Shown: one piece after another, positions 1 through 18,439 of the stretch | Position numbering within the stretch: the first letter of the stretch is position 1 | Layout of the letters: every line of letters starts with the position of its first letter | Source of the DNA: a virus | Length of the DNA stretch: 21,160 nucleotides | Strand: one strand, 5' to 3' | IMG/VR virus record: IMGVR_UViG_3300032282_001948 | Coordinates: 1-21,160 of that record | Notes under the pieces: model-generated | Seen by the model: only the letters and a program-made list of their open reading frames with translations | Told to the model about the DNA's origin: nothing | Databases searched by the model: none | Translations under genes and position numbers: made by a program

Positions 1-3000
1 ACTTGTTCTATCAAATTTTAGTGTTGAAGTTAATTCTCTTGTAGGAGTATTAGATACAATAGGTACTGCTCTTGCAGAGACTTCTAATTTGTTATTAACA
101 CTATTAATGCTTTCAGCCAAATTCACTCTATGTGAATCTATCATTGCATTATTTTTAGTGGTGTATAAAGCAATAACTGATTTTTTGTGGAACAAGCTAT
201 CAGTGCTAATCACACGCACATAGTAATATTTGCTATTCAACAATCCAGAAATACCAAGACTTGTCAATCCTTTGGTATATTTAACTGCATCGCCAGTTAT
301 CAATGATACTACATTGATATTAATAGTATTATCCTGATAGTTAATATCTGAACTGTTGAACAATACAGTAATAGATGCTTGGAACACAATATCAGGTTTG
401 GTTGTGTAGCCCAATCCAGGATCAGTTACAATAATATCAATAACTTTTCCACTAGACATGACTGGTTCAAGTATTGCAGGTCTTTTTGGTGCTGGATAAA
501 TTTTTGTATCAACCACTGCTTTAATCTGAGGAGGGTCAATATAGTCTCTACCGGAATCTAGTAATACTACTCCAGGTAAATCAATATATACTGTTGTTCC
601 CGGGATGTGTTCTGCTACATCACTATCACCTGCGCCACGTGTTAAACTATATAATTTACCCTTTTCTCTATCAATTTGCGAGTAGTCAATATATTCATCA
701 TCAATCTTAATTCTACCCGTCATAGGTAAACCAAATGCATCATCTACATACAAGACTGCTTGAATAGTATCCAAATACACTTTTAAAGATGTGATTGGGG
801 TGTTTGAACTTCCAGTTAATGATATACCATAATTACTATACCAATCAGAATATAGACTATCATTCCAAATAGTATCAGTAGGTAACACTTGCCCAGTAGC
901 TCTAACTGAATCAAACACTAGATTAGGTGTTATAAATCTATCGGTAGTTGGATTATATCTACCTGGCAAGTCAAAGTCAGTTATTTTACCAGTATAAGAT
1001 TCTGTCTTAGTATACTTCAATAAGAATTCTTTAATTACAACACGATATGGCTTCACTTCATTAATGAATCCTTCTAAGAATACTTGATTATCACGCTTAT
1101 AATTCTTATCTTGTGCCAATTCACGTAATGTGTGTTGTACATCCACCAATGATGTTTTATTCAACCAAGTTAAATTGTTTTGTGATGTTGTATTCTCGCT
1201 TACAATGTACTCAAACAACAATATCAAACTTTTATTGCGATGGATACGCAATGTTTCTGTATAAATTTGTTCGTTCAATGCACGTATGATGTAACGAGTT
1301 TCCATTGAAGGGTATGAATCAAATGAATCCAATTCATAAAAATTACTATCAAAGCCAATTTTATTATTTGAATAATCCCATAATGAACTCTTAATTTGAA
1401 CTGTACCTTGTTCTAGTCCAATTCTATCCCAACTTGTTCCGTTATAGGTATATACTTCACGTTTACCCTCACTGTTCATAGTGACGCCAGCAATCATTCC
1501 TGTAAAAGGAGTCAATGTTGCAAGACCATAGTACTTAGATACTTCAACGTCAATCTTGGTGTTAACGCTATATCCCTCAGCCCACCAGTACACGTATTCC
1601 CAATACTTAGTTGTATCAAAATCTACACCAGTTATTGTAAAGAATGTAGGTGCTCTTACTGTGCTACTTGCACTATTACTAGAACCTAACAAACTAGGAG
1701 TCTTAAACTCTGCAATAGGATATTGTTTTAATACATTATTTGCATATCCAAAATAATTAGCCAATGCTTTTAATCTATTCTTAAACATGCTTTGTCTAGG
1801 TCTATATGCTGTACCAGTTTGCATTAACTTAGGTAATGCGATATCAGGAACTACACGCCCTTGACTGTCCATACCAGCAAGACTGTCAAGTAATTTTTCA
1901 TACATTGATTCGGGCTCTGTATGTTCAGTGTACATTGACGGGATACCTGCAATGAAATCATCTTCATAACCAGCACGAATCAATTTGAATTCATTGTATG
2001 CAGGGGTTTCATTACTACCAGAACTAAATCCAATATATAAACTAGATGTTACATCTGTGATAAACTCGCTTGCATTGTATAATCCAAACACGTTAGGTTT
2101 ATATGCCGCAAAGAACGGTACACCTGAAGTAATTGGGTTGGCAATGTACAATTCTAATATTGTATCAGATAGAGTTTTACCCTTAGTGCTTTGAATAACG
2201 TTAGTGTTTTTGACCCAGTAGTAATATTTCAACACTAAGGATCCTGCACTGTCAACTTCAACTGTAGTAGTGTATGATTCCAAATCGTACGGTGTGCCAG
2301 TACCTGCATAATTTACCGGAGTAACATCACTTTCAACCCAAGTATAAACACTTACAATACTGTCAGGAAAAACAGTACCCCAGTATTTGCTATTGTATAC
2401 AGTATCTTCTTGGTGATAATTTACAAAACGTGTTGAAGATGTGTCAAACCATAATTTACCAATATGGTCACTAGACCAAACTAAGTTGTGATTTCTAACA
2501 TCTGTATTATATCCAGCAGGATCAATATTATCAATGTAATCTAAATTTTCTAACACTATTCCTAACAATTTGCCTTGTAATGGATCAATATAATCTAATG
2601 ACTGGATACGTTCATTAGTATCATTATCATATATTTGAACTCCGGTTAATCTGTCAACGTCAACAATATCATTTGATTTTCTAAATATATTCCAATTTGG
2701 TTTGTTTGTCTCATTTCTATACGCAACAACTCTACCACCAAACCCATCATTGGTGTTATTGTCAGGTACACCCACTATCAAAGCATATTCACTAAATGCT
2801 ATTTTCTTTCCATAGAATGCATTAGGACCAATATTAGTAATTAAATCATTTGCTGATTGAGCAAATACATAACTACCTAAATTGTTTAAGCTTTCATTAT
2901 ATTCCGGCATGTAATCATAAACAAATACTGCCCCGGCATTTGCAAACGAGTCAATGAATCTAGTAAAGTTGTTGTCAAAATATGTATCATTGTTAGTTTT

Positions 3001-6000
3001 ACTATCATCAATAAAATCAAATGTCGTAGCGGCAAATCTATTTGCTGTTGGTGCACCAATTGCTACAGAATTATATTCATTAAATTTAATTGAATATCCA
3101 AATTGAGTTGGATGAGTTGTATTATGAACTTCACGGATGGTTTGTGTTTGCGTAAATTCTTTAATTCCCAAACTATCTAGAACTGCTTTACTGAATACAG
3201 TGAGTGTTAACTTGTCATTTAGTTTACCTATGTTAGGGTCACGTAAACTAATTTGTAATATACCACCGTCTAGTACTGTAGCTACTACATTCAAAATGTG
3301 TGCTTCATTGATAGCAGTTGCGACTCCAGATACACCTGTACCAGGTAACGTAACTGCTGTCCCGTTGATTAAAACTGTAGCGGAAGTTGATAAAGTTACT
3401 GAACTTATACCTGTAATTGTTCCATACTTCTTACCTTCATGGGTATATCTATAAACTGCACCCTCATAATTTTCAACTGACACATCAAAAGGCGCGCCAA
3501 CTAAAACATCATTACCAAAAATATTTGTATCTAGCCCTGTACCAAATGCAATACCGGATCTAATACTTGTTCTATAATCATACGGGGTAAGTGTTTGTGT
3601 AAAAACAAAATCCCCAGAACTAATATTTACGATATCCCCGGCGCCAACTCGGAATGGATACTTAAATGTTATAGTATTAGACGTAGTAGTGTAGTCTATT
3701 GTTGGGACTAGTAATTTACCGTTGTGTGACACAGAAATACCATTTGAAGGAGCCCAAGCTATCTTGGTAGTCAAATCAGTCCAATCAATTGAATCTCTGA
3801 CATACGTGATATTTTGTACTAGTCTGCTATATACATAGACTGCTCCCATGTTGAAGAATGTTGGAGTAAAATCTAGTGCGGGCGCACTGATAAAAACTTT
3901 GGTGCCATCATAATTAGTAGAAAGAGTGGTGCCAAAGCCCGTATTAGATATCTTCCAATATATTGGTTGGGTGCTAGGATTTTGATTAGTATTCCCACCA
4001 ACTGCAATATATGTGTTACCACTATAGTAAACAACTGCACCTATGTTATAAACAGTAGAACTTGACCAAGCAGGAATTACATCTGAAACATTTAATGACG
4101 TTACGCTAGAATAGTTATAAGTTGATTTGTAAACTGTAGTACCGGAAGCAACTGCTGATTTAAAATTACCTTGAATATAGAAAGTAGTTTTATTAGTACC
4201 TAAATTGTATTCACTTGTTTCAATAACATAAGTCTCTGCTTTGATGGCAGTAGAGAAAGATACTTTATCTCCGTGACCTAATCCATCAGTTTGGTCTCCG
4301 TTTACAATAAAACCAGTGGCATAAATTACAATAGGAGAAGAAAGAGCGAATCCAGCAGATACACGAATAACATTATCATCAAGTCTATAAACATAAACTT
4401 TTGATTCAGGTAACGAACCTATGAATAACCATTTCTTATCACCAGACAATGCTACGGTGTCTCCTACCCTTTTACCAGCAATAGTAATAGTTTGCTGAAC
4501 AACAAAAGATTTATGAGAACTAGGATGTAATACACCGACATAGATATAACTATTTGCCGCATCAGGTGATGTAATGATGATAACATCATCTGACTTAGCC
4601 ATAGCAGTACCAAATCCATTTGTAGCAACAGTTACTGATTCCTTATATTCGTATGTATTTGCGTTGAGTGACGTTACACCATATGTACCTGCTTTAGCAT
4701 ACGTATATCTATAAACTGTTTTTGCTCCCGAATCCCCTACATAGATTCCCAAATCTTTATCAAATACTACAGAGTTGCCAAATTTTTGAGTACCTGATTT
4801 CTTCAATAAATTCGTGTATTTGTAGCTTAAATCTTTTTGATATACTGCCCATTTACCATTTTGGTCTGTATCAACCCATACTTTCTGTTGGCTTACACCG
4901 TCGTTCATTAACAATAGGTTAGATAATTCTTTTGTAGAAGATATACGTTGAGTTTGAAACTTAGATGCAATTCCCAAACTAGTAATAACGGTGATCTCCG
5001 ATGGCAATGATAAATCTACTGTCACCGTTGTTAGTCCACCTACAGTATTAACTCTATAAAATCCGTCAATAGAAGAATCATAGTTAACAATCATGAATGT
5101 ATCATTTTTAATCAATCCATGCGGGAAATCAAATTCAAATGTAGCAGTACCATTAAAATTATTATTTACATTGATGGCATTGACATGTTTTTCAATCGTA
5201 CCCATTGGAATTGGTGTAATTACTTTCCAATTACCATAGTCATCAGCAACCCAAATGTAATCACCTTGATATATTTCATTTGCAGTCAATGTGCTTACGC
5301 TTAATCTATCAAATGAGAAGCTAGACATTTTGATATCATTGAAGTTCACATATCCTGCGCTTGGTAATTTCTCAAAATAGTCAAGTGGTTTTCTAGGTAA
5401 TATATTTGTGTCAGGGATAACTGAACCAAAATTAGTTAAACTGTATAACGGAATAGTCTGTAATAACCCTGCTTCAGCTTGGTCATTAACGACCCCAATG
5501 ATGTTAGGATTACCGGTTAGTTCTGTTTTATTAAGTTTGAATTCTATGAAATTGTGGTTAGTTACTCCGCCATACTCGGCAGTTTTAATAGCCCAATTCT
5601 CATATATATCATATTTGATTTGACCAACATCTAATGTAATGTTTTGTGCAATATTAGCGGCATTTTTAGTGCCTTTCTCGCTAATAAAACTTTTGAATAA
5701 ATTGACTTGAGATATATCAGATAAGTCACTGGCTGCTAGATAATCTCTAGGTCTATAACCAATCAATGAGAAGCCTAATAGGTCTCCGTCATTTTTTAGA
5801 TTAGCATTTTTAATGTCATAGTACAATGCGCTTTCTGATGCACGTGTACTTGCATTAGGTAATAGACCCTTTTGAATCTTTTCATAATCAGTTTCAATCC
5901 AGTCGTTATTGTTGAATGTAAGTGAAGCTAACACTGTTTTATTAGCCATCCAATATTTGTTTTGATAGGTTACAATAGAACCCTTAACATATTTTACGTT

Positions 6001-9000
6001 AGCTGACCAATTTTCAATGTTATCCTGGTTTAGTATAAACCCTTGAGCATTTAATGTACCGTTCCATTCAGCAGTTTTTTGTCCTCGCAAGAACAATCTA
6101 TTCTGACGCAAACCAGTAAGTTTGTTGAATATTGTATCATTGAACAATGACACATTATCAAACACGATGCCATGTTCTAATGAATTTAAACTGGCAGTAA
6201 AATAAGAAATAGTATCACCGTCATTCAATGGTCTAACTTCAAAGCGTGTGTCATCTCTTAAGATTGCTAAATCACTTGAATGGATAGCATACAAGTTTTG
6301 ATTTAGAATAAAATTCTTGTCTTGTGCAGATAAAGGTTGAACGATTAGGCTCTCTTTATCAATTACCAACCGATTAGCTATTGGGTTAATAGCAATCATG
6401 CTTCCAACTTCCCAGTTAGCGCCTACCCAATACAATGCTTCGGCAACCATTTGATCCCAGTTTAATATAAATCCATTTTCTTGATTATCGAACTGTATTC
6501 CCTGGTCAATTAAATATCTACCATAGTTAGTAATGAATTCGCCTAATGCTTGGGCTGTAGTAAATACAGTGCCATAAGGAACATATTTAATTTTAGTATT
6601 GTAATTATTAGGTATGTTTACTTTTGTACCATTGACCTCAATTACTTTATACATTCCATCTATGTCTGATGTGTATGTCATAAAGTATGCACGTGTTTGA
6701 CTGTTACCAGTAACTGAGTACCCCAAAGTTGTTCGTTGAATAATTATACTACTATAATGAATAGTAAATTCAGGTTGATTTTGATATAACAGTACACTGT
6801 AACTTTCGCTAGGTAATAATAATGAAACGTTAGATGAACTTGTGCTTGACTTCTCTAAATAGAAATTCAAGTATTCCTTGTCTGTAAAGCCGGCGATTCT
6901 ATAAATCAATCTAACATCTAAATTGTTTAATAATGTGCTTACGTTATCATATCCTACATGACCGGTACGTTGAACATAGTCAACGATCCAATTCATGTAA
7001 CTATGTTGTGCTGTTCCATTACCATATAATAACGGAATTTTGTTCTCATATAAAAATCCGTCTAATAAGAATTGATTAAATTCTGAACTGTATGTATATA
7101 AATCTACATCTTGCGCTAATGAGAAGAACTTAGCCGGTTTCAATAAAGCAATTATCTTCATTAAATCAAATGGCCAGTTACTACTTCTTCTATAACTATA
7201 TTCAGCAGGACCAACATCTCCTACAGCCCATGGCGTATTAAATACTGCCTTGCTATAATCACGGATCATATTGTTAAACGGGTTCTTTAACTTACCATAT
7301 GAATCAACTGGTAATATTTTGGATAGTCCTGGTCTTGCTCTGCGTGAGTTAACAACACCATTAATTTTACCAGCTTCAATGTCTGCCCACAATACAGCGT
7401 TGTCACTTGTGTAGGGTGCTTCACCGTAACGACTATCCCACCAAGATGGCTTATCTGCTAATCCTAACATCTCCCACGGAGTTGAATGTGGTGTTGAAGT
7501 ATCATAGTACCAAAGATATATACCTCTCCAGAAACCCTGAGTAATAATTTTATTGCTCTTATCAGTAGAATTTTTATAATTCCAAGTAAATTTTTCACTT
7601 GATGAATAGAAATTATTTGCAAAGTCAATATTATTTTTGCCAACCCAATCTAAAAAATTAGCAGAATAAATTTTCTGAACTTCTTCAATTGAATTACCTG
7701 TACTTCTAAAGTATCCGGGGATAATTTCTTCTTCTTTGATTGGTATAGGGGCACTTACTTTGATGTTGTTGTAGATACGAGTTTCAAACTCTAATAATAC
7801 TTTGTCTTTGAAATCTTCCAAGTAACCATTATTATAGTCACCAAACAACTTAGTTAATGATCCATCATGTCCTTTAATAAAGTATGTAGGGATTAAATAG
7901 CTGTCATCTAGCACAATACTCGGACGACTTGCAGGATATAAACCTAATTTACTAGGAGTACTCGGAACATAACTACCATAGGTTGTATTGTATTCATTGA
8001 TAATGATGGTATCACCTGCAACTAAATCCTTAGTAATCTGCAATTTAGGTTGTGTGCTACTGACAGTATAATCTAAATCTTTAATTAATTGCGTATATCT
8101 ATCCACTCCACTAACTGTGTTTTTACTATAAACTAATATTGAGTTATAGTTTGCATTTTTAAAGTCATATATCTTACTTAATGGGAAGAAACTTGTGTCA
8201 ATAAATGCATTGAACGTGTATGTCTTAGAGATATAAGGTGCTCTTGCTGGTAGCATATCTGACCAGAAGAAGCTATCACTTTCTTGTTTATATGAAGCAA
8301 TCTGTTGTAATACATCATCTAACATCTGTGCACCAGACATTGTTGGGAAATATTCTGATTGGTCAACTGTTGACAACATCAATTGCTTAAACTTAACATA
8401 CTCTTGTGCATTAAATGATAGTGAATCTATCAAGTTGTATTCTTTGTGACGCATGAATGCGGCAACATTAACCAGTGGCGCACTGTTTCTGATTATCTTT
8501 GTTGCATAAGGAATCAAATCACCTGCATCTCTAAAATTGTTTGCACCAAATACATCACCGGTAATTTTTCTGCTATTTTTGTAAATGCTTTGATAGTGAC
8601 CGCGTAAATCACCCATACTCAATTCAGGAATATCAACATTAAATGGGTTATTAGATAGATTACTTGGTATTGTAAAATAAGCTTTTGGATCCAACGGATC
8701 ATTACTGTATATCAACACCTGCATCATTGTATTGACTGTTGGTGGGTTTAACAAAGTTATAATTGTGTGATTTAATGCAGTCGATGTTGTAACTTTATAT
8801 TCTGATGGATCAAGTTCAGTACTATCAGAGTAGACTCTAATTGTTGGCCATGGACTAGATGTTACAGGTAAAATATTAAATTTGATAGCATTTGAAGTAA
8901 CACCAATTTTAAATTCAGCTTCAAATGCTTGATATTGGAAACTTTCTCCTACTGCTGTCTCCCAGCCAATTTTTCTATTGTAGCCTGTACGTGAAGTATA

Positions 9001-11352
9001 GTTATGAACATATCCGTCAGTAATCTTATAGGTAGTTGACACAAAGTTTTTAATGAAATTAAATGCGTCACTGTTAAAATCAACATTGAAACTAATATCA
9101 CCTATGTTAGCAACTGAACTATATTTAATAGGAAATCCCAATATAGTATCGTCACCACCTGTGCCAGTAGCATATGAGAATAGTTTACTACCCTTGAAAT
9201 CACTACCTTGATAGTATGACTGATTGCTAAAACTTATACCATTAATATCAAACACATCAAATATAGGAGGTTGATTAATTAACGTCTTTGATTGAGCATA
9301 TATCCAAGTTGTTCCGTTGAAGTAATAAGTTTTACCAACGTTGTCTGTTCCTCTTTTAGAAACTACTTGTTCATTAGCAAGAACAGTATCTTTGTTAATG
9401 TTAGTTAACGTAATTACCGGGGTACTGATTCCTGTAATTGATTGAAATTTTACAGTAAAGATTTTGTTTCGTATTTCAATATCAGCATCGGCAGTAAACA
9501 CAATTGTTGCACCGTCAAATAGAGGTAAGCTACCATCAGGAATATATGATGTTTGACCTGACACCTGTGTGTTTGCGTTTGTCGTTCTAGTATCAATAAA
9601 ATCAACAAATGTTTTGTGAATTGTACCAGAATTAAATAATTTTAAGTTTGGATAGAACTCAATGATTGGTCTTTTAGCACGATTCTCTGCATTGTTTAAT
9701 GCGGCATTGGCTATCTTACCGCTTGAATATTTTGCAGTAGCTTTTAATACGTCAATATGGAACCAGCGATTACTGCGACTCCATGCATTTCTATTTTTGG
9801 CATCTCTATGAATAGTGATATAATCTTTAACAACCGGAACGTTTAATCGTTCACTAAATGTAGAAGTATCAAAACCTTCATTATCGTATGATTTGTAAAT
9901 TATTTGACTGAATGTTTCCGGAACCAATACATCAGTTTCCGGTACTAATTCAATGCCAGACCCTACACCCTCTACATAAAACTTTTTATCTCTATATGAT
10001 TCAGGAGAAATGGAACCCACTAAATGAACTTTCATTCCGTTTGTAAATACGACGCCAAACGGACTCTTATAAGTTTTTTTACCTAGAATATCAGTCTCAA
10101 CATTAATTTTATGTGATACATTATCTTCTACTAATCTAATTAGACCCGTCTTTAATGGATCAAGCGCATCTTGATAATACAGTGTATCTAAATCGGCAGT
10201 AATTTGAGCCAATTTAACTATCTCACCTAATTGATTTTTAACAAAGTCTCTGCTAATAAAAGTCTCACCAAATATAGCAGTTATGCGTTGATTAGTTGGA
10301 ATAACTTTATGTTCAGTTAAAATAATTACAGGATCTCCGCTATCTTCACTCACGTAGTTAATTTTATAAAAATTGTTCGTAATTACAGTGGTATCACCAC
10401 CATCATATGTAACATCATCAAACGCTACGTTGTCGTAGAAATTTGTTAATTTAGCAGTTGTTCCGGGTTTAAATCCATAAAACATCAATGTTCTATTACG
10501 TAATGAATTAACTCCGTCAATCTCTTTCAATTTACTTAACGGCATTCCATGAACTTTTTCAAAAGGCAATGTACAAACAATGTCAACTGGATTGTTACCT
10601 GGATATTTAATATTATCTTGGTCAGTTGCATGAGGTACAGTAAATGTCATAAAGCCAGCACTAATACCGTTGTTATCTAAACCATAAATTTCTCTGTTGC
10701 TTAAATTAGTGCGACTTGGATTCTTGCCAGAAGTTCCTGGACTAGTTTGAATATAAAAATTATTTGGTTGTGATACATTAAATGTATATGTGCCGCCGCG
10801 CAATAAGGTTATGATTGGGTTCTTACCTAAACTAACGTCATTGGCTGAAATTTGATAATCAACGGATTGATTTGTTACAACGTAGTCTAGTTTATTATAC
10901 AATAAACTTGTCTTAACATCTACTAAATCAGGACCATCGGGTAACCAATAGTATTGACTGAAGTTAACAAGTTTGTCTAGGTCAACAAAACTATCCCATG
11001 AATAAAATTGGTTTGCAAATAGTTTAGAATGATTAATTACTGATCCGTTTTCAGAAGCTAGTGCATCAACTAATCCAGGGTATGTTAAAAAGTCAACTGC
11101 GGTACTAGTATTGGTTTTAGTAAACACTACACCCGGTTCAAATTGATAATGTTGTCTAGTATTATTAGGCTCAACAATATAACTGTCACTAGCAGTTAAT
11201 CCATATTCAAACTTACGACCAATATATCCTTCAATCTTATCTAACTTGGGAGGAGTGACTAGTTGGTCTAGTGTGGCACCCAAAAATTGATTATTAGTTT
11301 CTGTTCTAAAAATCTCAGGAAGAAAATCAAGTGTTCTAACTCTATTTGCCAT
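1..11352 (-). CDS. Giant virion structural protein, baseplate-wedge type (C-terminus cut by window edge)
   Basis: I translated this frame from the ATG at 11352 to base 1. It gives 3784 codons with no stop, so the gene runs off the left edge. The start follows the gp6 stop by 5 bases, with a weak GGA-type ribosome site 8 bases upstream. The N-terminus (LDFLPEIFRTETN, then LVNFSQYYWLPDGP near residue 135) and a Trp-rich core at about residues 1265-1400 (PWEMLGLADKPSWWDSRYGE, LLKPAKFF) match my memory of very large uncharacterised structural proteins in marine T4-like phages. Downstream are two CBM5/12-like modules, seven FG-GAP-like blades (about residues 2190-2880), an EGFINEVKPYR motif near residue 3430, a TRG...H..GTTVYI module near 3580 and a PGLGYTTKP motif near 3650. 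It lies where T4 has gp7. I infer a baseplate wedge/peripheral protein with adhesive parts. The exact role is unknown, and gp7/gp10 or tail-fibre-base functions are all possible. Confidence 0.85.
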   Translation of the reverse strand, partial: MANRVRTLDFLPEIFRTETNNQFLGATLDQLVTPPKLDKIEGYIGRKFEYGLTASDSYIVEPNNTRQHYQFEPGVVFTKTNTSTAVDFLTYPGLVDALASENGSVINHSKLFANQFYSWDSFVDLDKLVNFSQYYWLPDGPDLVDVKTSLLYNKLDYVVTNQSVDYQISANDVSLGKNPIITLLRGGTYTFNVSQPNNFYIQTSPGTSGKNPSRTNLSNREIYGLDNNGISAGFMTFTVPHATDQDNIKYPGNNPVDIVCTLPFEKVHGMPLSKLKEIDGVNSLRNRTLMFYGFKPGTTAKLTNFYDNVAFDDVTYDGGDTTVITNNFYKINYVSEDSGDPVIILTEHKVIPTNQRITAIFGETFISRDFVKNQLGEIVKLAQITADLDTLYYQDALDPLKTGLIRLVEDNVSHKINVETDILGKKTYKSPFGVVFTNGMKVHLVGSISPESYRDKKFYVEGVGSGIELVPETDVLVPETFSQIIYKSYDNEGFDTSTFSERLNVPVVKDYITIHRDAKNRNAWSRSNRWFHIDVLKATAKYSSGKIANAALNNAENRAKRPIIEFYPNLKLFNSGTIHKTFVDFIDTRTTNANTQVSGQTSYIPDGSLPLFDGATIVFTADADIEIRNKIFTVKFQSITGISTPVITLTNINKDTVLANEQVVSKRGTDNVGKTYYFNGTTWIYAQSKTLINQPPIFDVFDINGISFSNQSYYQGSDFKGSKLFSYATGTGGDDTILGFPIKYSSVANIGDISFNVDFNSDAFNFIKNFVSTTYKITDGYVHNYTSRTGYNRKIGWETAVGESFQYQAFEAEFKIGVTSNAIKFNILPVTSSPWPTIRVYSDSTELDPSEYKVTTSTALNHTIITLLNPPTVNTMMQVLIYSNDPLDPKAYFTIPSNLSNNPFNVDIPELSMGDLRGHYQSIYKNSRKITGDVFGANNFRDAGDLIPYATKIIRNSAPLVNVAAFMRHKEYNLIDSLSFNAQEYVKFKQLMLSTVDQSEYFPTMSGAQMLDDVLQQIASYKQESDSFFWSDMLPARAPYISKTYTFNAFIDTSFFPLSKIYDFKNANYNSILVYSKNTVSGVDRYTQLIKDLDYTVSSTQPKLQITKDLVAGDTIIINEYNTTYGSYVPSTPSKLGLYPASRPSIVLDDSYLIPTYFIKGHDGSLTKLFGDYNNGYLEDFKDKVLLEFETRIYNNIKVSAPIPIKEEEIIPGYFRSTGNSIEEVQKIYSANFLDWVGKNNIDFANNFYSSSEKFTWNYKNSTDKSNKIITQGFWRGIYLWYYDTSTPHSTPWEMLGLADKPSWWDSRYGEAPYTSDNAVLWADIEAGKINGVVNSRRARPGLSKILPVDSYGKLKNPFNNMIRDYSKAVFNTPWAVGDVGPAEYSYRRSSNWPFDLMKIIALLKPAKFFSLAQDVDLYTYSSEFNQFLLDGFLYENKIPLLYGNGTAQHSYMNWIVDYVQRTGHVGYDNVSTLLNNLDVRLIYRIAGFTDKEYLNFYLEKSSTSSSNVSLLLPSESYSVLLYQNQPEFTIHYSSIIIQRTTLGYSVTGNSQTRAYFMTYTSDIDGMYKVIEVNGTKVNIPNNYNTKIKYVPYGTVFTTAQALGEFITNYGRYLIDQGIQFDNQENGFILNWDQMVAEALYWVGANWEVGSMIAINPIANRLVIDKESLIVQPLSAQDKNFILNQNLYAIHSSDLAILRDDTRFEVRPLNDGDTISYFTASLNSLEHGIVFDNVSLFNDTIFNKLTGLRQNRLFLRGQKTAEWNGTLNAQGFILNQDNIENWSANVKYVKGSIVTYQNKYWMANKTVLASLTFNNNDWIETDYEKIQKGLLPNASTRASESALYYDIKNANLKNDGDLLGFSLIGYRPRDYLAASDLSDISQVNLFKSFISEKGTKNAANIAQNITLDVGQIKYDIYENWAIKTAEYGGVTNHNFIEFKLNKTELTGNPNIIGVVNDQAEAGLLQTIPLYSLTNFGSVIPDTNILPRKPLDYFEKLPSAGYVNFNDIKMSSFSFDRLSVSTLTANEIYQGDYIWVADDYGNWKVITPIPMGTIEKHVNAINVNNNFNGTATFEFDFPHGLIKNDTFMIVNYDSSIDGFYRVNTVGGLTTVTVDLSLPSEITVITSLGIASKFQTQRISSTKELSNLLLMNDGVSQQKVWVDTDQNGKWAVYQKDLSYKYTNLLKKSGTQKFGNSVVFDKDLGIYVGDSGAKTVYRYTYAKAGTYGVTSLNANTYEYKESVTVATNGFGTAMAKSDDVIIITSPDAANSYIYVGVLHPSSHKSFVVQQTITIAGKRVGDTVALSGDKKWLFIGSLPESKVYVYRLDDNVIRVSAGFALSSPIVIYATGFIVNGDQTDGLGHGDKVSFSTAIKAETYVIETSEYNLGTNKTTFYIQGNFKSAVASGTTVYKSTYNYSSVTSLNVSDVIPAWSSSTVYNIGAVVYYSGNTYIAVGGNTNQNPSTQPIYWKISNTGFGTTLSTNYDGTKVFISAPALDFTPTFFNMGAVYVYSRLVQNITYVRDSIDWTDLTTKIAWAPSNGISVSHNGKLLVPTIDYTTTSNTITFKYPFRVGAGDIVNISSGDFVFTQTLTPYDYRTSIRSGIAFGTGLDTNIFGNDVLVGAPFDVSVENYEGAVYRYTHEGKKYGTITGISSVTLSTSATVLINGTAVTLPGTGVSGVATAINEAHILNVVATVLDGGILQISLRDPNIGKLNDKLTLTVFSKAVLDSLGIKEFTQTQTIREVHNTTHPTQFGYSIKFNEYNSVAIGAPTANRFAATTFDFIDDSKTNNDTYFDNNFTRFIDSFANAGAVFVYDYMPEYNESLNNLGSYVFAQSANDLITNIGPNAFYGKKIAFSEYALIVGVPDNNTNDGFGGRVVAYRNETNKPNWNIFRKSNDIVDVDRLTGVQIYDNDTNERIQSLDYIDPLQGKLLGIVLENLDYIDNIDPAGYNTDVRNHNLVWSSDHIGKLWFDTSSTRFVNYHQEDTVYNSKYWGTVFPDSIVSVYTWVESDVTPVNYAGTGTPYDLESYTTTVEVDSAGSLVLKYYYWVKNTNVIQSTKGKTLSDTILELYIANPITSGVPFFAAYKPNVFGLYNASEFITDVTSSLYIGFSSGSNETPAYNEFKLIRAGYEDDFIAGIPSMYTEHTEPESMYEKLLDSLAGMDSQGRVVPDIALPKLMQTGTAYRPRQSMFKNRLKALANYFGYANNVLKQYPIAEFKTPSLLGSSNSASSTVRAPTFFTITGVDFDTTKYWEYVYWWAEGYSVNTKIDVEVSKYYGLATLTPFTGMIAGVTMNSEGKREVYTYNGTSWDRIGLEQGTVQIKSSLWDYSNNKIGFDSNFYELDSFDSYPSMETRYIIRALNEQIYTETLRIHRNKSLILLFEYIVSENTTSQNNLTWLNKTSLVDVQHTLRELAQDKNYKRDNQVFLEGFINEVKPYRVVIKEFLLKYTKTESYTGKITDFDLPGRYNPTTDRFITPNLVFDSVRATGQVLPTDTIWNDSLYSDWYSNYGISLTGSSNTPITSLKVYLDTIQAVLYVDDAFGLPMTGRIKIDDEYIDYSQIDREKGKLYSLTRGAGDSDVAEHIPGTTVYIDLPGVVLLDSGRDYIDPPQIKAVVDTKIYPAPKRPAILEPVMSSGKVIDIIVTDPGLGYTTKPDIVFQASITVLFNSSDINYQDNTININVVSLITGDAVKYTKGLTSLGISGLLNSKYYYVRVISTDSLFHKKSVIALYTTKNNAMIDSHRVNLAESINSVNNKLEVSARAVPIVSNTPTRELTSTLKFDRTS
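2714..4782 (-). other. Seven FG-GAP-like blades (putative beta-propeller) inside the giant protein
   Basis: Seven segments share the pattern FG-x-S/T-h ... hhhG(A)P ... G-A-V-Y-V-Y (h, hydrophobic). They start at about residues 2191, 2247, 2296, 2473, 2603, 2751 and 2846. The clearest are FGTTLSTNYDGTKVFISAP with GAVYVYSR, FGTGLDTNIFGNDVLVGAP with GAVYRYTH, and FGYSIKFNEYNSVAIGAP with GAVFVYDY. The third begins VGDTVAL instead of FG, and the seventh begins FYGKKIAF. Known family: FG-GAP repeats form the seven-bladed propeller of integrin alpha chains and related bacterial proteins. The calcium loop (DxDxDG) is only weakly kept (DKDLG, NYDG). Blade spacing is uneven (49 to 177 residues), so the later blades carry insertions. 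The count of seven is read by eye. Confidence 0.6.
3945..4074 (-). other. CBM5/12-like module inserted between propeller blades 3 and 4
   Basis: Residues about 2427-2469 of the giant protein contain PAWSSSTVYNIGAVVYYSG, then NTYIAVGGN and a closing YWKI. The pattern W-x(5)-Y-x(2)-G-x-x-V-x-Y-x-G-x-x-Y-x-A followed by a final W resembles chitin/cellulose-binding modules of CBM families 5 and 12. The glycan-binding role is inferred from this short pattern only. The module explains most of the unusually long gap between blades 3 and 4. Confidence 0.45.
5882..6015 (-). other. Second CBM5/12-like module in the giant protein
   Basis: Residues about 1780-1823 contain ENWSANVKYVKGSIVTYQNK, then YWMANK and, 16 residues on, NDWIETDY. 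The W...Y..G..V.Y....W.A...W arrangement matches the other module at 3945-4074. It lies about 370 residues before the first propeller blade. The fold assignment is inferred, and no binding target can be read from the sequence. Confidence 0.4.
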
Positions 11353-11357
11353 TATTA

Positions 11358-14300
11358 TTATCCGCTAATTGTTTGAAATTCATTTGCTGTCAATGATGTA
11401 ATTACTTGTATATCCGATACTTGTAATGCACTTACAAATATTTCATTAGGTGCACTACGAATTTCGTATAAGTCACCAAATTTTAATGTTGGGTCTTTAG
11501 GGATCAATATTGCTGAACCTATTAAATCACCTAATTCACTGTGCAAATATGCACTTAATTCACTGAAATAAAAGGTATCCCCAAAGTCCCAATTAGTTAT
11601 ATCAAAATATTTGTTAATTGCATTAACTACAGCAATACTTATCTCACTCTCACTTGCTGTGGTTTTACTTGCTTTGATAACTTTAATAATAGCTTGTAAT
11701 TGTGGATCAGCTTTAGTTCCAAACAATGGCTTGAACTTGACGCTGTTTAAAATAACACTATCACTCAACATCTTATAATCTTCAATCTTGCCATATGATT
11801 GAGTTAATTCATTAATCGTAGGCATAGTTGGTTCGCTTACTTTATTAGTAGTATCAGTAATCCACTGACGATATTGAGTATAATAAGATTGTGTAACCAA
11901 ATACATATCAATGATATTTGTAGTTGCTGGATTAATTCTACCGGTATTGTTACTGTTATGTTTATACTGGAAGTACAGTCCTTGTCTGCCTGAGAATGTG
12001 CTAATGTTACTTAACACATTTAATTTCAATACGTTTGCTGATGTAGCGTCTGCGGCTGATTGATAAAATACCTTATCATCTGTTGCATAGAATTTTTGTC
12101 CAATTGGGAATTCATATTTTATTGCTTGTATTTCTACTTTATTTTTGAATGTAGTTACAATTTCTGTACTTGGAATAATTCTATATTTGTTTAATAGGTT
12201 GTTATCAATAATCTTTTCAACAAACACGAAATTCTTTAACCCTGAACTGTATCCGGTAACATAGTTAAAGAAATCCGGATTACTGATAATCTTGTTATTT
12301 GCGGGGTCAATGACACTTACTTCAATAGAGTAGTCATCTACATATCCATCAGATTCTACCGGTTGCCCAACTACTGCTAACATCACATCATCACCAAAGT
12401 TTGCATTTGTTCCGGGTAATGTGTTTGTTTTTAGCATTTTTACTGTGTCATACAGTGACTTACCAGACAGCGGATCATAAATGATTTTGCTTCTATCAAA
12501 TGAAAAACGTGTATCATTTGCGCTACCAAAGTAATATGCTAATGCCTTATTGGTTACTGAGTATATTCCATCACCCATGCTTTTAAAGTTAACCAAAAAG
12601 TTAGTTGTACTATAATCAGAAATAGACCAGCGTCTTGTATCTGCTAATGATAATGAGTTGTCGTAATTCAACGAGAAGCTTTGATTGTTTATACAACGTG
12701 CAATGGCATTTTGTATAATTGCACTTGGAACAATATTATCAAATACAGGAATAACAGTTGATACTAATGCACCGGTTGGAATGTTGTGACTCAATGTTAC
12801 CGGACCTAAACCGTTATATAGATTACCAACTCCACCATTATAACCATCATCAATTACGTTTACAACCGATGTCCAGATATAAGTTAAGTCACCGGGACCG
12901 GGTAACTTTGGTACTAGTCTATTGTTTTGAAATACAAAACCACCAGGTGCAACAAATTTAACTAATGCGCCGGTAGTACAATACTTCATATTGGTTGCAC
13001 TATATATACCTACAGGAATTGCAGTTCCTATACTTACTAATTTAAAATAACCAGTAATGTTAGTTGAATTAAAAGATGTTTGTTTCCAAGCAGTATCAGT
13101 TACTGTATATCTAGATGCATTATTAACATAATATTGTTGCATTCTACGACTAGACAGTATTGACAGTAGCTTATTAGTTAAAAAACTAATAACACTTGTG
13201 GTGCCACGGTCTAAATTAAGAGTTTGAAACTCATCATCTTGTTTGAAATATAATGCCCCATCTTCTGCAAATGAATTAACGCTTGAATATTTTGCTGTTG
13301 GGTCAAGCAAATCAAAATTACGTGATGTACCAATACTACTACGATTCAATGCTTTACTTTTTAGTACGCTACTGTATAATGTCTTTGGAAATACATTATA
13401 ATCTTCACCGTTAACCATACGATTTTGTGTATAGAATCTTGTAGGAGCACGTAATTTAATATCAGCAATGCTCTCACGTGCTTGTGCATTTGTTACCGGT
13501 TGTGTTAGTTGCAGGGTGATAGTTAATGTTTCAATTCTAGCAGTCTTACTGACATAACTAAATGAAACAGTAGTTCCTTGTATGTCACTTGGGTCAATAT
13601 TATATTGTAGTGCATTGCCAGTTCTATAATATGCCCTAAAGTTACCAATAGGTATTTCACCAAACACACCGTCACCAAATACATAACTTACTTGGTCGTT
13701 GAATCTTGAATCAACCGAGAATATGTTCATTTCGGTCAATGAGTTATTATAAATGTTATCTACTTTAATCCATTCTGTTAGCGCACCGGTAACTGAATCA
13801 ACTTTAAATAACCATGTATCAGTATCATTAATACCTTCAGTATTGATATCTACTACTTGATTAGAAATTTTTTGTGTCAATGAGAAAGACTGGCTCTTTA
13901 GTGTACCTTGTTTAAAGTACATAAAAAACCCTGTATTAGCACTACCATAACCTAAGTTATCGTTTCTATATAATATATTGAATATCCCGTTTGCTTTTGG
14001 GGATGTTTCATATACATAATCTTCACCTGCACTGCTTGAACTTACTAATTCAAAATTCATTGCAGTACCATTGATAGTTTGTGTAAAGCCGATTGCAGGT
14101 AATGCGTTAGTTGGAATCTTTAAACTGTATTCACTAGTCTTTACACCCAAAACTGTTTGAGTATTGCCTGGTCGACCAATGCGCTGAGAAGTAACTAGTG
14201 CCGCATTTAATACTGTGTTAAATTGCTCTTGCCAGTTACCGTTTGAAGGATCATTCCACAATACTGTAGTGCCACTAAGGTTGATACCATTAATATCGTT

Positions 14301-14687
14301 GACATTTTCCGTTGTTGCTACGCTTACTACTTTTAAGAAGCCTTGGCCAGATAGATTACGCTTTGGGCTGTATCCAACTAGATTTGCTAGTTTGATTACT
14401 GAATCTCTACGTTCTGCTGTGTCAATAAAGTTTTCACGTGTGTTCAAATCATCACGGAAACTCAAACTTTGCCCCATGAAGGCAATCAAATCTAACAATG
14501 CAATATACTCACTAGATTCAACATAATCATTGAATGTTTCAGGGTAGTATGTCTTTAGATAATCTACAAATGACTTGCGTAGGGTTTCGTAGTCGTAGCT
14601 TTGGAAATCAGCTTGACTAAAGGTTTTATAGATAGTTTTCCAGTCATTGGAACCAAATATTGTTGATTGTCTTGAACTTGTGGCCAT
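11358..14687 (-). CDS. 6: Baseplate wedge protein gp6, enlarged form
   Basis: In T4, gp6 dimerises to join neighbouring baseplate wedges into the inner ring. This 1109-residue protein has the typical gp6 N-terminus: an IYKTFSQADFQSYDYETLR segment at about 19-37, ESSEYIALLDLIAFMGQSL at 57-75, and NTRENFIDTAERRDS at 82-96. A Baseplate_J-like core follows, with VFGDGVFGEIPIG at 336-348 and LRAPTRFYTQNRMVNGEDY at 412-430. The last 130 residues resemble the gp6 C-terminal dimerisation part (INKYFDITNWDFGDTFYFSE). T4 gp6 is about 660 residues, so roughly 450 extra residues sit mainly between about 460 and 980. I recall similarly long gp6 proteins in marine T4-like phages. The start at 14687 has only a weak AGAG ribosome site 10 bases upstream. 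The gene ends with two in-frame TAA codons, 5 bases before the giant gene. Confidence 0.93.
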   Translation of the reverse strand: MATSSRQSTIFGSNDWKTIYKTFSQADFQSYDYETLRKSFVDYLKTYYPETFNDYVESSEYIALLDLIAFMGQSLSFRDDLNTRENFIDTAERRDSVIKLANLVGYSPKRNLSGQGFLKVVSVATTENVNDINGINLSGTTVLWNDPSNGNWQEQFNTVLNAALVTSQRIGRPGNTQTVLGVKTSEYSLKIPTNALPAIGFTQTINGTAMNFELVSSSSAGEDYVYETSPKANGIFNILYRNDNLGYGSANTGFFMYFKQGTLKSQSFSLTQKISNQVVDINTEGINDTDTWLFKVDSVTGALTEWIKVDNIYNNSLTEMNIFSVDSRFNDQVSYVFGDGVFGEIPIGNFRAYYRTGNALQYNIDPSDIQGTTVSFSYVSKTARIETLTITLQLTQPVTNAQARESIADIKLRAPTRFYTQNRMVNGEDYNVFPKTLYSSVLKSKALNRSSIGTSRNFDLLDPTAKYSSVNSFAEDGALYFKQDDEFQTLNLDRGTTSVISFLTNKLLSILSSRRMQQYYVNNASRYTVTDTAWKQTSFNSTNITGYFKLVSIGTAIPVGIYSATNMKYCTTGALVKFVAPGGFVFQNNRLVPKLPGPGDLTYIWTSVVNVIDDGYNGGVGNLYNGLGPVTLSHNIPTGALVSTVIPVFDNIVPSAIIQNAIARCINNQSFSLNYDNSLSLADTRRWSISDYSTTNFLVNFKSMGDGIYSVTNKALAYYFGSANDTRFSFDRSKIIYDPLSGKSLYDTVKMLKTNTLPGTNANFGDDVMLAVVGQPVESDGYVDDYSIEVSVIDPANNKIISNPDFFNYVTGYSSGLKNFVFVEKIIDNNLLNKYRIIPSTEIVTTFKNKVEIQAIKYEFPIGQKFYATDDKVFYQSAADATSANVLKLNVLSNISTFSGRQGLYFQYKHNSNNTGRINPATTNIIDMYLVTQSYYTQYRQWITDTTNKVSEPTMPTINELTQSYGKIEDYKMLSDSVILNSVKFKPLFGTKADPQLQAIIKVIKASKTTASESEISIAVVNAINKYFDITNWDFGDTFYFSELSAYLHSELGDLIGSAILIPKDPTLKFGDLYEIRSAPNEIFVSALQVSDIQVITSLTANEFQTISG

Positions 14688-14708
14688 ATAATTAGTATCT
14701 CTTTATTA

Positions 14709-14716
14709 TATTTATC
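14709..14716 (-). promoter_or_regulatory. Candidate T4-type late promoter upstream of gp6
   Basis: On the minus strand this reads GATAAATA, a 7/8 match to the T4 late octamer TATAAATA. It lies in the only sizeable intergenic gap of the window (48 bases). Transcription would start about 15 bases before the gp6 ATG. In such AT-rich DNA a 7/8 match can arise by chance, so position is the main support. A site here would allow separate late expression of gp6 and the giant gene. Confidence 0.35.
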
Positions 14717-14735
14717 GTTGTAAAAATACCGTTTT

Positions 14736-15185
14736 TTAAGCTAACGAAGCGGTGCTTGTCTGTTGATTGAATAGAATAGCAATATCTCTAACTTTGTTAG
14801 CAGGGCTTACTGCCAATTCAATTGATGCTACAATACCATTTTCTTTAGCATAAATTTCTATGTTATTCAGAATAAGTCTAGGATCCAATCTGGCTACACG
14901 AATCAATTCTTCTTTTAATTGGGTTGCAGTTTCGTAATCATTTGGCTCAAAAATAAAGTTCCAAAGATTTGTCCCATACGATGGTTTACCGGGCTTAGAA
15001 CCCTGAGGAATGTTAAGCGCATTTAGAAAATTCAATATAACAGCCTCATCATCCGTGACTGAATATTTGGTAGAAGATACGGCTGAACGTCCCGCATTAG
15101 TAGTATAATCAACTAGTCCTGTTGGGATATTAATTGAACGTGTTGCATTAACATTTTGTGTAGAGAAACCTTTATATATTGTCAT
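14736..15185 (-). CDS. 25: Baseplate wedge protein gp25 (GPW/gp25 family)
   Basis: gp25 is a small wedge protein of the inner baseplate. In T4 it binds the gp6 dimer with gp53 and contacts the first sheath ring, helping to trigger contraction. The protein is 149 residues (T4 gp25 is about 132). It has the family signature KPGKPSYGTNLWNFIFEP at 64-81 and the DPRL segment at 101-104, which corresponds to the EPR motif of the family. Helical and strand segments after it (IEIYAKENGIVASIELAV) fit the usual C-terminal half. The start at 15185 is supported by an AAAGGA site 6 bases upstream. It follows gp5 by 3 bases and precedes gp6, its structural partner, so the order matches assembly. The first 35 residues are Ser/Thr/Asn-rich and less conserved. 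Confidence 0.93.
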   Translation of the reverse strand: MTIYKGFSTQNVNATRSINIPTGLVDYTTNAGRSAVSSTKYSVTDDEAVILNFLNALNIPQGSKPGKPSYGTNLWNFIFEPNDYETATQLKEELIRVARLDPRLILNNIEIYAKENGIVASIELAVSPANKVRDIAILFNQQTSTASLA

Positions 15186-15188
15186 TTC

Positions 15189-16991
15189 TTATCCTTTAGT
15201 TTGTAGGTCATACATTTCTTTTCGTATTTCTTCAATGCGAATCAAACAATCTTTGTAATTCTGTAGAGCAGTTTTATACTCAGAACTATCAGATCCGTAT
15301 TTTTTATCTGCTTTATTCTTCTCAGTTTGCAGGTCCCACTTCTTATTTTTATCTAAATCGTCTAATTCTTTCTTCAACGTATCATATTGTTTAGTTGCGT
15401 CAGGACTTAACGGTTGCACATTTAATGCACCGCCCGAAGTAATAGGTAATGCAATTCCACCACCTAACAATGATGCGGCTGCTGAATTCATACTTGTTCT
15501 ATCAATCGTATCTACTGCAAACGTAGGTAATATAGTAGAACCTTCTCCACCTTTTGGTATCGCATCTAAATTAGGTTTAGAGCTACCTGCATTTGCTTTA
15601 TTAACAAACGATCCTAATGAAGCGATGCCATCTTTAAATGCACCAAGACCCATTCCAGGAGGTATGACACTAGCGGCGGTAGTTCCAGTTGGAATCTTTG
15701 GCTTGCTAACTCCTGCTAATGGGTTCTGCGGTAATGTCGATGGTAATGATGTTGGATTTGGTAGACCGGTCAACGATGACAAGTCAGGTACACCACTAGG
15801 TAATGATTTTAATTTATCAGTTAAGCCAGTGACAGCAGACGCTCCGGGAACAGTTATACCTAATTTTGAAGCTGCGGCAGTTGCGGCTGCTACACCTGCA
15901 GTTATTGAGCCTGCCGTAGCAGCCAATGAACTTGCTGATGGTATAGAGCTGGCTAATGAACTAACGCTAGCAGGCGTTATACCAGCTAAAGGACTACCTG
16001 ATGAGGGGCTAACTGACGCTGCCATTGTTTTTAAATCAGGGGCACCGCTAAGTTTATCTTTCAGTGCAGTCACCGCCTCTTTGACAGAAGCAGGTGGTTT
16101 ATAGCTAGGATCACTTTCTGCCGCCGCTACTGTTAAGTTAACTGGCTTGTTGGCTTCTAATTTTTTGAATACTGATTTAACTGCATCAAATCCTTTTGCT
16201 GCCGCTGATTTAGCACTGTCTACTGCTGATGTAATTCCTTCTTTAATTGAGTCTCCTAATGAACCGGCTGATTTCTGTCCCATTGACGCGGCAAAATTAC
16301 CTTCACTTATACTTGCACCAACTTTTGATCCTACACCACTTAGTGGATTAACTATTCCAGCACCTGATGTACTTGGTAAATTACCTGCCATACCCTTAAC
16401 ATAATCAGTAGTAGCATCCACGCCATTTGTTGCCGCACTTGAGATTAATCCGCTTATACTACCCGCACTTTCAGCACCTGTAATAACTCCGGCAGCTTTT
16501 AAACCACTATATCCTTGTTGCATTAATGTAGATGCGGTTCCTACTTGTGCGCTTGGGTTGTTTACAAAATCCGATACACTATTAATTCCACCTTGACCAG
16601 TGAATAGATTAGTAGGTAATGCTTCTGTTAATGACTTACCTTTTGCTACTAAAGAATCTGCTAGTGCGGCACTTCCAGGTTTAAGTACTCCTGCCTGTTC
16701 TAATTGTGCGGGTGTTTGTGCTAGTGCGCCAAGTACTGCTTGTTTTGTCCCGTTTAAGTCTACTACACCTGAACCATTTGCTACAGCAGTAGTGGTTGCT
16801 GGATTTGTTGCCGCACTAACTGCTTGTTGAGAAACAACAGATTGAGTTGTTCCTTTATCCATATTACCAACTGGAGCTGCCGGTGGGACCGTTGCGGCGA
16901 CCGCGGGTGTTGTGGGGTTCTTTGGTGCGTCTGGTGCTGAATTGTTAGCCGCTTGTACTGCTTTAGGTGGGGGACTCGGTAATGAATCGTC
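15189..16991 (-). other. Low-complexity C-terminal extension of the gp5-like protein
   Basis: Residues about 480-1079 are beyond the predicted beta-helix. They begin with a Pro/Ala linker (SLPSPPPKA, PPAAPVGN) and continue with long Ala/Ser/Gly/Pro stretches such as SVSSLASSIPSASSLAATAG. They end with a charged helix-like segment (KKELDDLDKNKKWDLQTEKN). Small residues make the opposite strand free of stops over long runs, which creates false plus-strand frames there. No catalytic motif is visible. Its function is unknown. Confidence 0.7.
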
Positions 16992-18428
16992 TGCTGATGT
17001 TTTAACTTCAACGTCAACACCCATGTTAGCATTAACCCAAGGAGTATGTGCAGGGGCACGATTTACTATACTAGACAATTTACCCGGTGTTGCTATCCAA
17101 CCCTTTACAGAATCAAACAACGTATCAATGTGTGTTGTTTTGTTATATGCTTTTATTTTTTCTGGGCTTAATGAAGACGTGCCGGTGTTTAAATTAACTA
17201 CACTACCATTAATATATGTAGCCGATCCTGATTCAAAACTTGCGGCATCGCTTGACTTTGAACTCATACCCTTATCAACCTTAAGTGTATGATTACCAAC
17301 AGTATGTTGAGTAAAATCATCTCCGACTCTTACATTAGTTTTCTTATCACTTTGAATATTAATTTCTTCTGAATATATGTTTAATTTCTTCTCAGCATGG
17401 ATATTAATGTTGTTGTCAGCATGAAAATTAATATCGCCTTGGGCACGAACATTAAAACTGTTCATAGCATAGATATCAACTGTTCCTTCTTTACCCAACT
17501 CAACATAACTTTGTCCGTTAGCGTGGACTATGAATAATGTTTGTCCATCGTCACTCATTGTGATTTGATGTCCAGAACTAGTACGCAATCTAACTAATTG
17601 ATTTTGTCCTTGTACATCACCGTCATCCATTACAAAACTATGTCCACCCCTACGTGCAGTTATCTTAAGTTTTGAATCAGCTTCTCCGGATAAGCCCTGA
17701 GCAATAGCAGTATCATTTGATCCATCACCCAATCCACCTTTGTATATAGGTCTTCCTGGTGTAGATATACCAAATACACGTGACGGTGATTCACGCATAC
17801 TAGAACTTGATATTGCACCTCTGATTGGATCACGCAATAATCCTTGTTGGTGCAATTGTCCAGCAAGTGCGCTATGCACTGGTCTTGGCACTTCAATAAA
17901 GTCACTTATTTTTTCTTTACCAATATCATTCCATTCAACGACTGGTAATTTTGTTGCGCCGCCGTAGCTGTCTGCTTCTGATTCTCCGGCAGTTATTTTA
18001 GTTGATGCCCCTATACCAGGAACCATATGATGTGATCCTGTCTTTGGTACACCACCAATATAGTATCCAAAGTCTTTTTTGCCATTTAAGAAAATACAAA
18101 TAACTTCACTACCAACATCAGGTGGTGTAGCCCATAGCCCATAGCTATGATGATTAGTTTTAAATGTACCGTCATTATTGCTATCTGTCGCATTATCACC
18201 CGGAGTCATTCCAAAGAAAGGACTCATGTATTGAACTGTTGTCCAACTCTTATTATCATCTTCAGTGCCACCAAAGTCAGCAACATACACTTGAATTCTA
18301 CCAGCACGGTTAGCATCAATAGTATTCTTAACTATTCCTTTAACTGGATAGTTAACACTTATCTTACCGCCAGCATCTGGTTTATTTGCGGCTGTTGTGC
18401 CCGTTACTTTAGCTACGTTCTCACTCAT
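15189..18428 (-). CDS. 5: gp5-like baseplate hub/spike protein, no lysozyme domain, long C-terminal extension
   Basis: In T4, gp5 trimers form the cell-puncturing needle under the hub. Here, residues about 28-130 form an OB-fold-like domain (KGIVKNTIDANRAGRIQVYV, then GSEVICIFLNGKKDFGYYIG). Residues about 195-230 hold RDPIRGAISSSSMRESPSRV, which I recall from gp5 proteins of marine T4-like phages. Residues 253-385 are a VgrG/gp5C-like beta-helix (GHSFVMDDG, GHQITMSDDGQTLFI, then short alternating strands such as GDINFHADNNINIHAEKKLN). T4 gp5 has about 575 residues with a lysozyme domain between OB fold and spike. I see no such domain here. Residues about 480-1000 are Ala/Ser/Pro/Gly-rich, and 1009-1077 look like a charged coiled coil. 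The start is fixed by GGAG 7 bases upstream. It overlaps the preceding gene by ATGA, which suggests translational coupling to the proposed hub protein. Confidence 0.88.
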   Translation of the reverse strand: MSENVAKVTGTTAANKPDAGGKISVNYPVKGIVKNTIDANRAGRIQVYVADFGGTEDDNKSWTTVQYMSPFFGMTPGDNATDSNNDGTFKTNHHSYGLWATPPDVGSEVICIFLNGKKDFGYYIGGVPKTGSHHMVPGIGASTKITAGESEADSYGGATKLPVVEWNDIGKEKISDFIEVPRPVHSALAGQLHQQGLLRDPIRGAISSSSMRESPSRVFGISTPGRPIYKGGLGDGSNDTAIAQGLSGEADSKLKITARRGGHSFVMDDGDVQGQNQLVRLRTSSGHQITMSDDGQTLFIVHANGQSYVELGKEGTVDIYAMNSFNVRAQGDINFHADNNINIHAEKKLNIYSEEINIQSDKKTNVRVGDDFTQHTVGNHTLKVDKGMSSKSSDAASFESGSATYINGSVVNLNTGTSSLSPEKIKAYNKTTHIDTLFDSVKGWIATPGKLSSIVNRAPAHTPWVNANMGVDVEVKTSADDSLPSPPPKAVQAANNSAPDAPKNPTTPAVAATVPPAAPVGNMDKGTTQSVVSQQAVSAATNPATTTAVANGSGVVDLNGTKQAVLGALAQTPAQLEQAGVLKPGSAALADSLVAKGKSLTEALPTNLFTGQGGINSVSDFVNNPSAQVGTASTLMQQGYSGLKAAGVITGAESAGSISGLISSAATNGVDATTDYVKGMAGNLPSTSGAGIVNPLSGVGSKVGASISEGNFAASMGQKSAGSLGDSIKEGITSAVDSAKSAAAKGFDAVKSVFKKLEANKPVNLTVAAAESDPSYKPPASVKEAVTALKDKLSGAPDLKTMAASVSPSSGSPLAGITPASVSSLASSIPSASSLAATAGSITAGVAAATAAASKLGITVPGASAVTGLTDKLKSLPSGVPDLSSLTGLPNPTSLPSTLPQNPLAGVSKPKIPTGTTAASVIPPGMGLGAFKDGIASLGSFVNKANAGSSKPNLDAIPKGGEGSTILPTFAVDTIDRTSMNSAAASLLGGGIALPITSGGALNVQPLSPDATKQYDTLKKELDDLDKNKKWDLQTEKNKADKKYGSDSSEYKTALQNYKDCLIRIEEIRKEMYDLQTKG

Positions 18429-18439
18429 CCTCTTACTCC
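18425..18439 (-). promoter_or_regulatory. Ribosome site and 4-base stop/start overlap for gp5
   Basis: GGAG at 18439-18436 lies 7 bases before the gp5 ATG (18428-18426). The upstream TGA stop (18427-18425) shares bases with that ATG. The arrangement points to coupled translation of hub and spike and confirms this start over internal ATGs. Confidence 0.7.

Follow-up and report, generated by a model that had tools for sequence, protein, structure and literature searches.

A giant virion protein encoded in the baseplate operon of an uncultured jumbo phage is predicted to contain a closed, seven-bladed beta-propeller of the FG-GAP, or integrin alpha, type. The DNA studied here, IMG/VR record IMGVR_UViG_3300032282_001948, is a virus contig of 21,160 bases with no larger genome behind it, and the whole of it is referred to below as the window. 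The propeller occupies residues 2178–2879 of the giant protein (window 2716..4821, minus strand). A sequence-only reading of the window had proposed that seven FG-GAP-type units follow one another in one open frame and close an integrin-alpha-type propeller inside this protein, and had named structure prediction followed by a structure search as the check. The units, the ring and its likeness to integrin alpha were all recovered.

The AlphaFold2 model (m5c0077ea009b), calculated for residues 2171–2982 with 41 sequences, has a mean predicted local distance difference test score (pLDDT) of 79.9 and a predicted template modelling score (pTM) of 0.80. Blades 1–5 mostly score 80–95 and blades 6 and 7 about 75–90, with values below 50 limited to model residues 1–3, a loop in blade 6 and the downstream flank, which was cut in mid-domain. 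The best PDB match of the model in Foldseek was integrin alpha5 (E = 4e-8). When the top Foldseek chains were re-aligned, all of the top 50 rows were integrin alpha subunits, with Z scores of 32–36 over ∼340 residues, the alignment covering model residues 5–722. The best of these, 7usm_A, aligned over 340 residues at 2.6 Å with 17% identity (Z = 36.3).

The strand order given by DSSP divides the model into seven putative blades of four strands each, the fourth strand of blade 3 being the least certain. An N-terminal strand at residues 2178–2184 (window 4801..4821, minus strand; DSSP strand 8–14 of the model) would supply the fourth strand of blade 7, giving a velcro closure. The outer strand of the other blades precedes the next FG, and the closing strand has the same placing before the first FG. 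This strand was the one omission of the sequence-only reading. The prediction confirms a closed seven-bladed ring of integrin alpha type in the giant protein.

The fold is that of an integrin alpha propeller but the protein is not an integrin, because the DxDxDG calcium loops are absent (neither the window propeller nor those in the remaining rows of our alignments A3 and A4 has one) and the a–b loops, which join the first strand to the second, have just 2–6 residues. With integrin alphaM (7usm) and alpha5 (4wjk) the propeller shares the seven-bladed ring, the FG/GAP/GxVYVY repeats, and a chain start and end that are in register around the entire ring. In contrast to the integrins, it lacks a thigh, a calf, membrane parts and a beta subunit. 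Whereas integrin alpha is a cell-surface receptor, the window propeller lies inside a phage virion protein of a baseplate operon.

The seven units begin with FG, VG or YG at residues 2191, 2247, 2296, 2473, 2603, 2751 and 2847, running from window position 4782 down to 2716 on the minus strand in one open frame. Units 1–3 (residues 2191–2219, 2247–2275 and 2296–2324; window 4696..4782, 4528..4614 and 4381..4467, all minus strand) were recognised by their starts, the AlphaFold2 model and unit-to-unit profile matches. Units 4–7 (residues 2473–2508, 2603–2638, 2751–2815 and 2847–2879; window 3829..3936, 3439..3546, 2908..3102 and 2716..2814, all minus strand) were in addition found by a hidden Markov model (HMM) of the unit, built from relatives. 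The window and four relatives (L001, L002, L005 and L017) were excluded from its training, and it detected units 4–7 in the window protein with independent E-values of 8e-13 to 1e-3, the window protein being the single target.

Profile searches, the other check that had been named, gave a divided answer. Pfam, whose FG-GAP repeat profiles are PF14312 and PF01839, placed no FG-GAP unit of the window protein above its cut-off, the best FG-GAP_2 match, to a cut-out piece, having E = 0.0049 and 17.5 bits against the 23 required. In the relatives, however, FG-GAP_2 (at E ≤ 0.01) was present in 22 of 22 and 30 of 41 members of two homologue sets, or 52 of the 63 alignment rows scanned, with a best E-value of 3.1e-18; one relative (L074) scored 43.9 bits against the cut-off of 23. 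All seven units were also linked by profile–profile comparison within the 41-sequence alignment, the 21 pairs having a median probability of 90.7. Compared with segments drawn at random from the same family of proteins, the units gave a median probability of 0.2 and a maximum of 3.1. We rely on this unit–random control, as the random–random control once peaked at 99.3, presumably where its segments overlapped.

Loops and inserts of the propeller

The lengths of the loops were surveyed in 37 relatives, leaving out L001, L002 and L005 as close copies. The unit cores are nearly constant in length. The c–d insert of blade 3 (residues 2325–2411; window 4120..4380, minus strand) is hypervariable, ranging from 4 to 186 amino acids, and that of blade 4 (residues 2513–2579; window 3616..3816, minus strand) varies from 64 to 236. 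Pairwise alignable residues amount to 29% in the blade 3 insert, 62% in the blade 4 insert and 97% in the units. The c–d insert of blade 5 (residues 2639–2732; window 3157..3438, minus strand) is an alpha/beta subdomain of mostly constant length, usually 94 amino acids with a maximum of 201.

The b–c loop of blade 6 (residues 2768–2807; window 2932..3051, minus strand) is 40 residues long in the window and 33–40 in the relatives. It has the highest conservation in the propeller, with a pairwise identity of 0.62, despite a low pLDDT. This combination suggests a partner, making the loop a candidate for a protein–protein contact.

A module resembling CBM5/12 carbohydrate-binding modules lies in the inter-blade (d–a) loop between blades 3 and 4 (residues 2428–2467; window 3952..4071, minus strand), where it was matched by Pfam CBM_5_12 (E = 2.4e-4) and by chitinase C. 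Propeller-borne CBM_5_12 reaches at best 21.5 bits, below the curated cut-off of 26.2, and this module was seen in the close clade of the window (the window itself, L001–L005 and L017). Its position recalls the alphaI domain of integrins. However, the integrin alpha insert is between blades 2 and 3, whereas the window has inserts in blades 3–5 and between blades 3 and 4. A second CBM5/12-like stretch occurs upstream of the propeller (residues 1781–1803; window 5944–6012, minus strand), and chitin-binding or CBM5/12 annotations are also found in the homologous operons of Pseudomonas phage PAC2 and Vibrio phage 2.275.O.

From the general topology of propellers, the c–d inserts and both chain ends of the modelled ring would share one face, and the CBM5/12-like module and the blade 6 loop would share the opposite one.

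Distribution and history of the module

Relatives were drawn from IMG/VR by three rankings and anchored on a conserved domain that follows the propeller, the 1400 residues before the anchor being scored. After thinning, 93 rows (window included) had a propeller, 37 had none and 9 were ambiguous, leaving 130 that could be scored. All 93 propeller-bearing rows are metagenomic. The overall propeller fraction is biased by the choice of loci, since the relatives ranked nearest to the window all carry one. No propeller was detected by the models used in the seven isolates compared (slurp01, GAP32, PAC2, Vibrio 2.275.O, SCTP-2, Atu_ph07 and Phosso), though a strongly diverged one could escape them.

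The site spans as little as 150 amino acids in proteins lacking the propeller and at least 611 in those with it, and the propeller behaves as a discrete module that this one site either has or lacks. On a tree of the flanks of the 130 scored rows (a short search, with support from the Shimodaira–Hasegawa-like approximate likelihood ratio test only), the presence or absence label takes two changes. The history is essentially one deep gain or loss together with one later loss, in L139, which lies within a propeller-bearing clade, has sisters with the propeller and retains 232 amino acids between the anchors. Two changes on the tree are too few for a rapidly swapped cassette, and that view of the propeller was rejected. 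L139 is also a natural deletion that marks the borders of the module.

In 50,697 records, three propeller queries found no isolated phage with a propeller inside the giant protein; the matches were to the flanks, save for one in S-CAM3 that was short and local. The giant virion proteins of 121Q, GAP32, PA5oct, SCTP-2, Atu_ph07 and similar jumbo phages have the same gene position and homologous flanks (24–33% identity), but in them, unlike in that of the window, no FG-GAP propeller could be detected at the site. In Atu_ph07 and Phosso the site holds a different large insert, of 1518 and 1513 amino acids, respectively (L007 7447–12000 and L012 7462–12000). Pfam gave nothing informative for the stretches that replace the propeller in isolates, these two included.

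FG-GAP proteins do occur among the predicted structures of phages and giant viruses, the closest being the uncharacterized A0A6J5L8L4 of an uncultured phage. Two entries in BFVD, A0A2L0UZX4 of Atu_ph07 and H6WG31 of S-TIM5, named hemagglutinin and virion structural protein, are separate proteins of ∼400 amino acids with propeller-like predicted structures.

The giant protein and its operon

The window belongs to a lineage of uncultured, Rak2-related jumbo myoviruses. It has no DNA similarity to phage records, and a search for the host among bacterial genome contigs matched just four contigs of metagenome-assembled genomes, of mixed origin. Five large genes lie on its minus strand. These encode a virion structural protein (18425..21037; phrog_11190, E = 2e-21), a gp5-like baseplate hub protein (15189..18428; phrog_13211, E = 1.3e-36), a gp25-like baseplate wedge protein (14736..15185; PF04965, E = 3.3e-6), a gp6-like baseplate wedge protein (11358..14687; phrog_10646, E = 1.5e-257, and phrog_219, E = 3e-24) and the giant virion protein (1..11352; phrog_10938, E = 8e-256). 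The giant gene directly follows the gp6-type wedge gene, as would be required of gp7, so that with the T4 gene order 6-7-8 it takes the place of gp7.

The giant reading frame is uninterrupted from its ATG at 11352 to the contig edge and gives 3784 amino acids. In L001 and L005, which come from other samples, the complete frame is ∼5370 amino acids, 89–90% identical to the window part, and the window protein is the first 3784 residues of a protein of roughly 5370. The protein is assigned to the baseplate from gene order and because mass spectrometry of virions detected a putative homologue. This is gp245 of phAPEC6, a member of the 121Q group, which is 381.88 kDa, gave 17 unique peptides in the virion and adjoins the baseplate wedge protein gp244 (PMC7247149); its homology is judged from size and neighbour.

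The sequence-only reading had also described the N-terminus as wedge-like, which was not upheld. No similarity of the giant protein to T4 gp6, gp7 or gp8 was detectable with hhalign and an 18-sequence profile. In a model of residues 1–1100 (pLDDT 76, pTM 0.63) the sole fold that stood out was a cupredoxin-like domain with insertions, at residues about 151–414 (window 10111..10902, minus strand; Z = 9.7 to rusticyanin 2cal over 93 residues at 1.9 Å). No wedge protein was among the fold matches, but this one domain filled their list and a wedge fold may still be present. Beyond the propeller, residues 2884–3209 (window 1726..2703, minus strand) form the conserved domain, common to isolated jumbo phages, that served as the anchor.

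What the propeller may do

We favour, at about an even chance, a reading in which the propeller would be a rigid baseplate platform holding lineage-specific modules toward the host surface. The ring would act as a rigid, conserved scaffold, with the blade 3 and 4 inserts as its fastest-changing parts; from the baseplate it would point these modules outward to contact host-surface glycans or receptors. A discrete, rigid and conserved module with the fastest-changing inserts in neighbouring blades is as expected of a display platform. The natural target of such a platform at the baseplate is the cell surface, and the CBM5/12-like insert fits this. Receptor or glycan contact by the propeller module is plausible, and would probably be secondary, alongside separate fibres.

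Propellers on phage baseplates are already known, and we count as precedents two that are described in PMC4901313. In Staphylococcus phage phi11, the receptor-binding protein (RBP) Gp45 is a baseplate propeller for host recognition whose N-terminal strand closes the last blade, a closure that the window propeller shares. However, Gp45 is a separate trimeric protein with five blades, for which DALI finds glutamine cyclotransferase nearest (PMC4901313), whereas the window propeller has seven. In phiKZ, gp131C (PDB 4GBF) has a seven-bladed propeller at a jumbo-phage baseplate with a suggested receptor-binding role (PMC4901313). There the propeller forms the C-terminal domain of a peripheral protein that is separate, whereas that of the window is mid-chain in the giant protein at the gp7 position; the folds are likened here by description. 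A full-text search found no paper describing a phage baseplate with a propeller of the FG-GAP or integrin type, the subscription literature being mostly outside its coverage.

Several observations weigh against a host-contacting platform. Length variation of the inserts is not proof of recognition, and, unlike a host-range cassette that is swapped, the propeller keeps to the tree of its protein, on which the 130 scored rows need just 2 changes. CBM_5_12, under the Pfam cut-off in the window, is rare in the relatives. The nearest relative (L097) has, ∼11 kb downstream of its giant gene, a separate gene (13132–16899) for a protein of 1255 amino acids that combines four LamG stretches with fn3 and a Gly-rich domain and is likely an adhesin or fibre. 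The earlier proposal that the contact surface is on the baseplate and takes the place of one on a separate tail fibre is therefore unsupported. Finally, a seven-bladed propeller with inserts can have a structural role, as in the nozzle protein of SU10 (PMC9509320). This propeller, within a tail structural protein of a podovirus, also has velcro closure and domains inserted in its loops, but its inserts are between blades 2 and 3 and it has structural and DNA-channel roles (PMC9509320).

The strongest competitor, which we consider somewhat less probable than a display role, is that the ring is a structural docking hub, binding baseplate or fibre proteins, with inserts that fit lineage-specific fibres or neighbouring subunits and not the host. 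The deep, nearly vertical conservation of the propeller agrees with this, and the most conserved stretch, the blade 6 loop, combines that conservation with low model confidence, as a loop that binds a partner would be expected to do. In SU10 the tail needle and a short fibre attach to loops of the propeller (PMC9509320). However, the module is undetected in the seven related isolates and lost in L139, so it is not needed for such a baseplate, and the CBM5/12-like insert points toward carbohydrate. Both could hold, with one face docking and the other displaying.

Many propellers bind ligands on one face, and a lectin-like site on the propeller face itself, with the inserts incidental, would be a further alternative, if an improbable one. 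The cavity of the five-bladed phi11 RBP propeller could accommodate N-acetylglucosamine (PMC4901313). Against such a site, the integrin calcium loops are absent from the window propeller and its inserts are much more variable than the face. There are seven-bladed propellers that are hydrolases, and the N-terminal units gave weak lactonase/paraoxonase sequence matches, but a carbohydrate-active enzyme (depolymerase) is the least probable account of all, as the best fold matches were all integrin alpha, with no enzymes among them, and no enzyme family was above cut-off.

Returning to the display platform, we sketch tentatively, as a picture more doubtful than the platform itself, a large, uncultured jumbo-phage lineage with a permanent integrin-alpha-type platform in the gp7-position protein. 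The blade 3 and 4 loops would be its evolving host-contact surface, the receptor device would sit in the wedge and not in a fibre, and, as in integrins with an alphaI domain, one domain would be set between two blades.

The window propeller adds to phage structural proteins a clear integrin-type example that lacks calcium sites, which helps in tracing the fold. If a platform of this kind does display modules to the host, these widely sampled jumbo phages would have part of their host contact built into the body of the baseplate, near the sheath trigger, and their host specificity might be read from the sequence of the variable loops alone.

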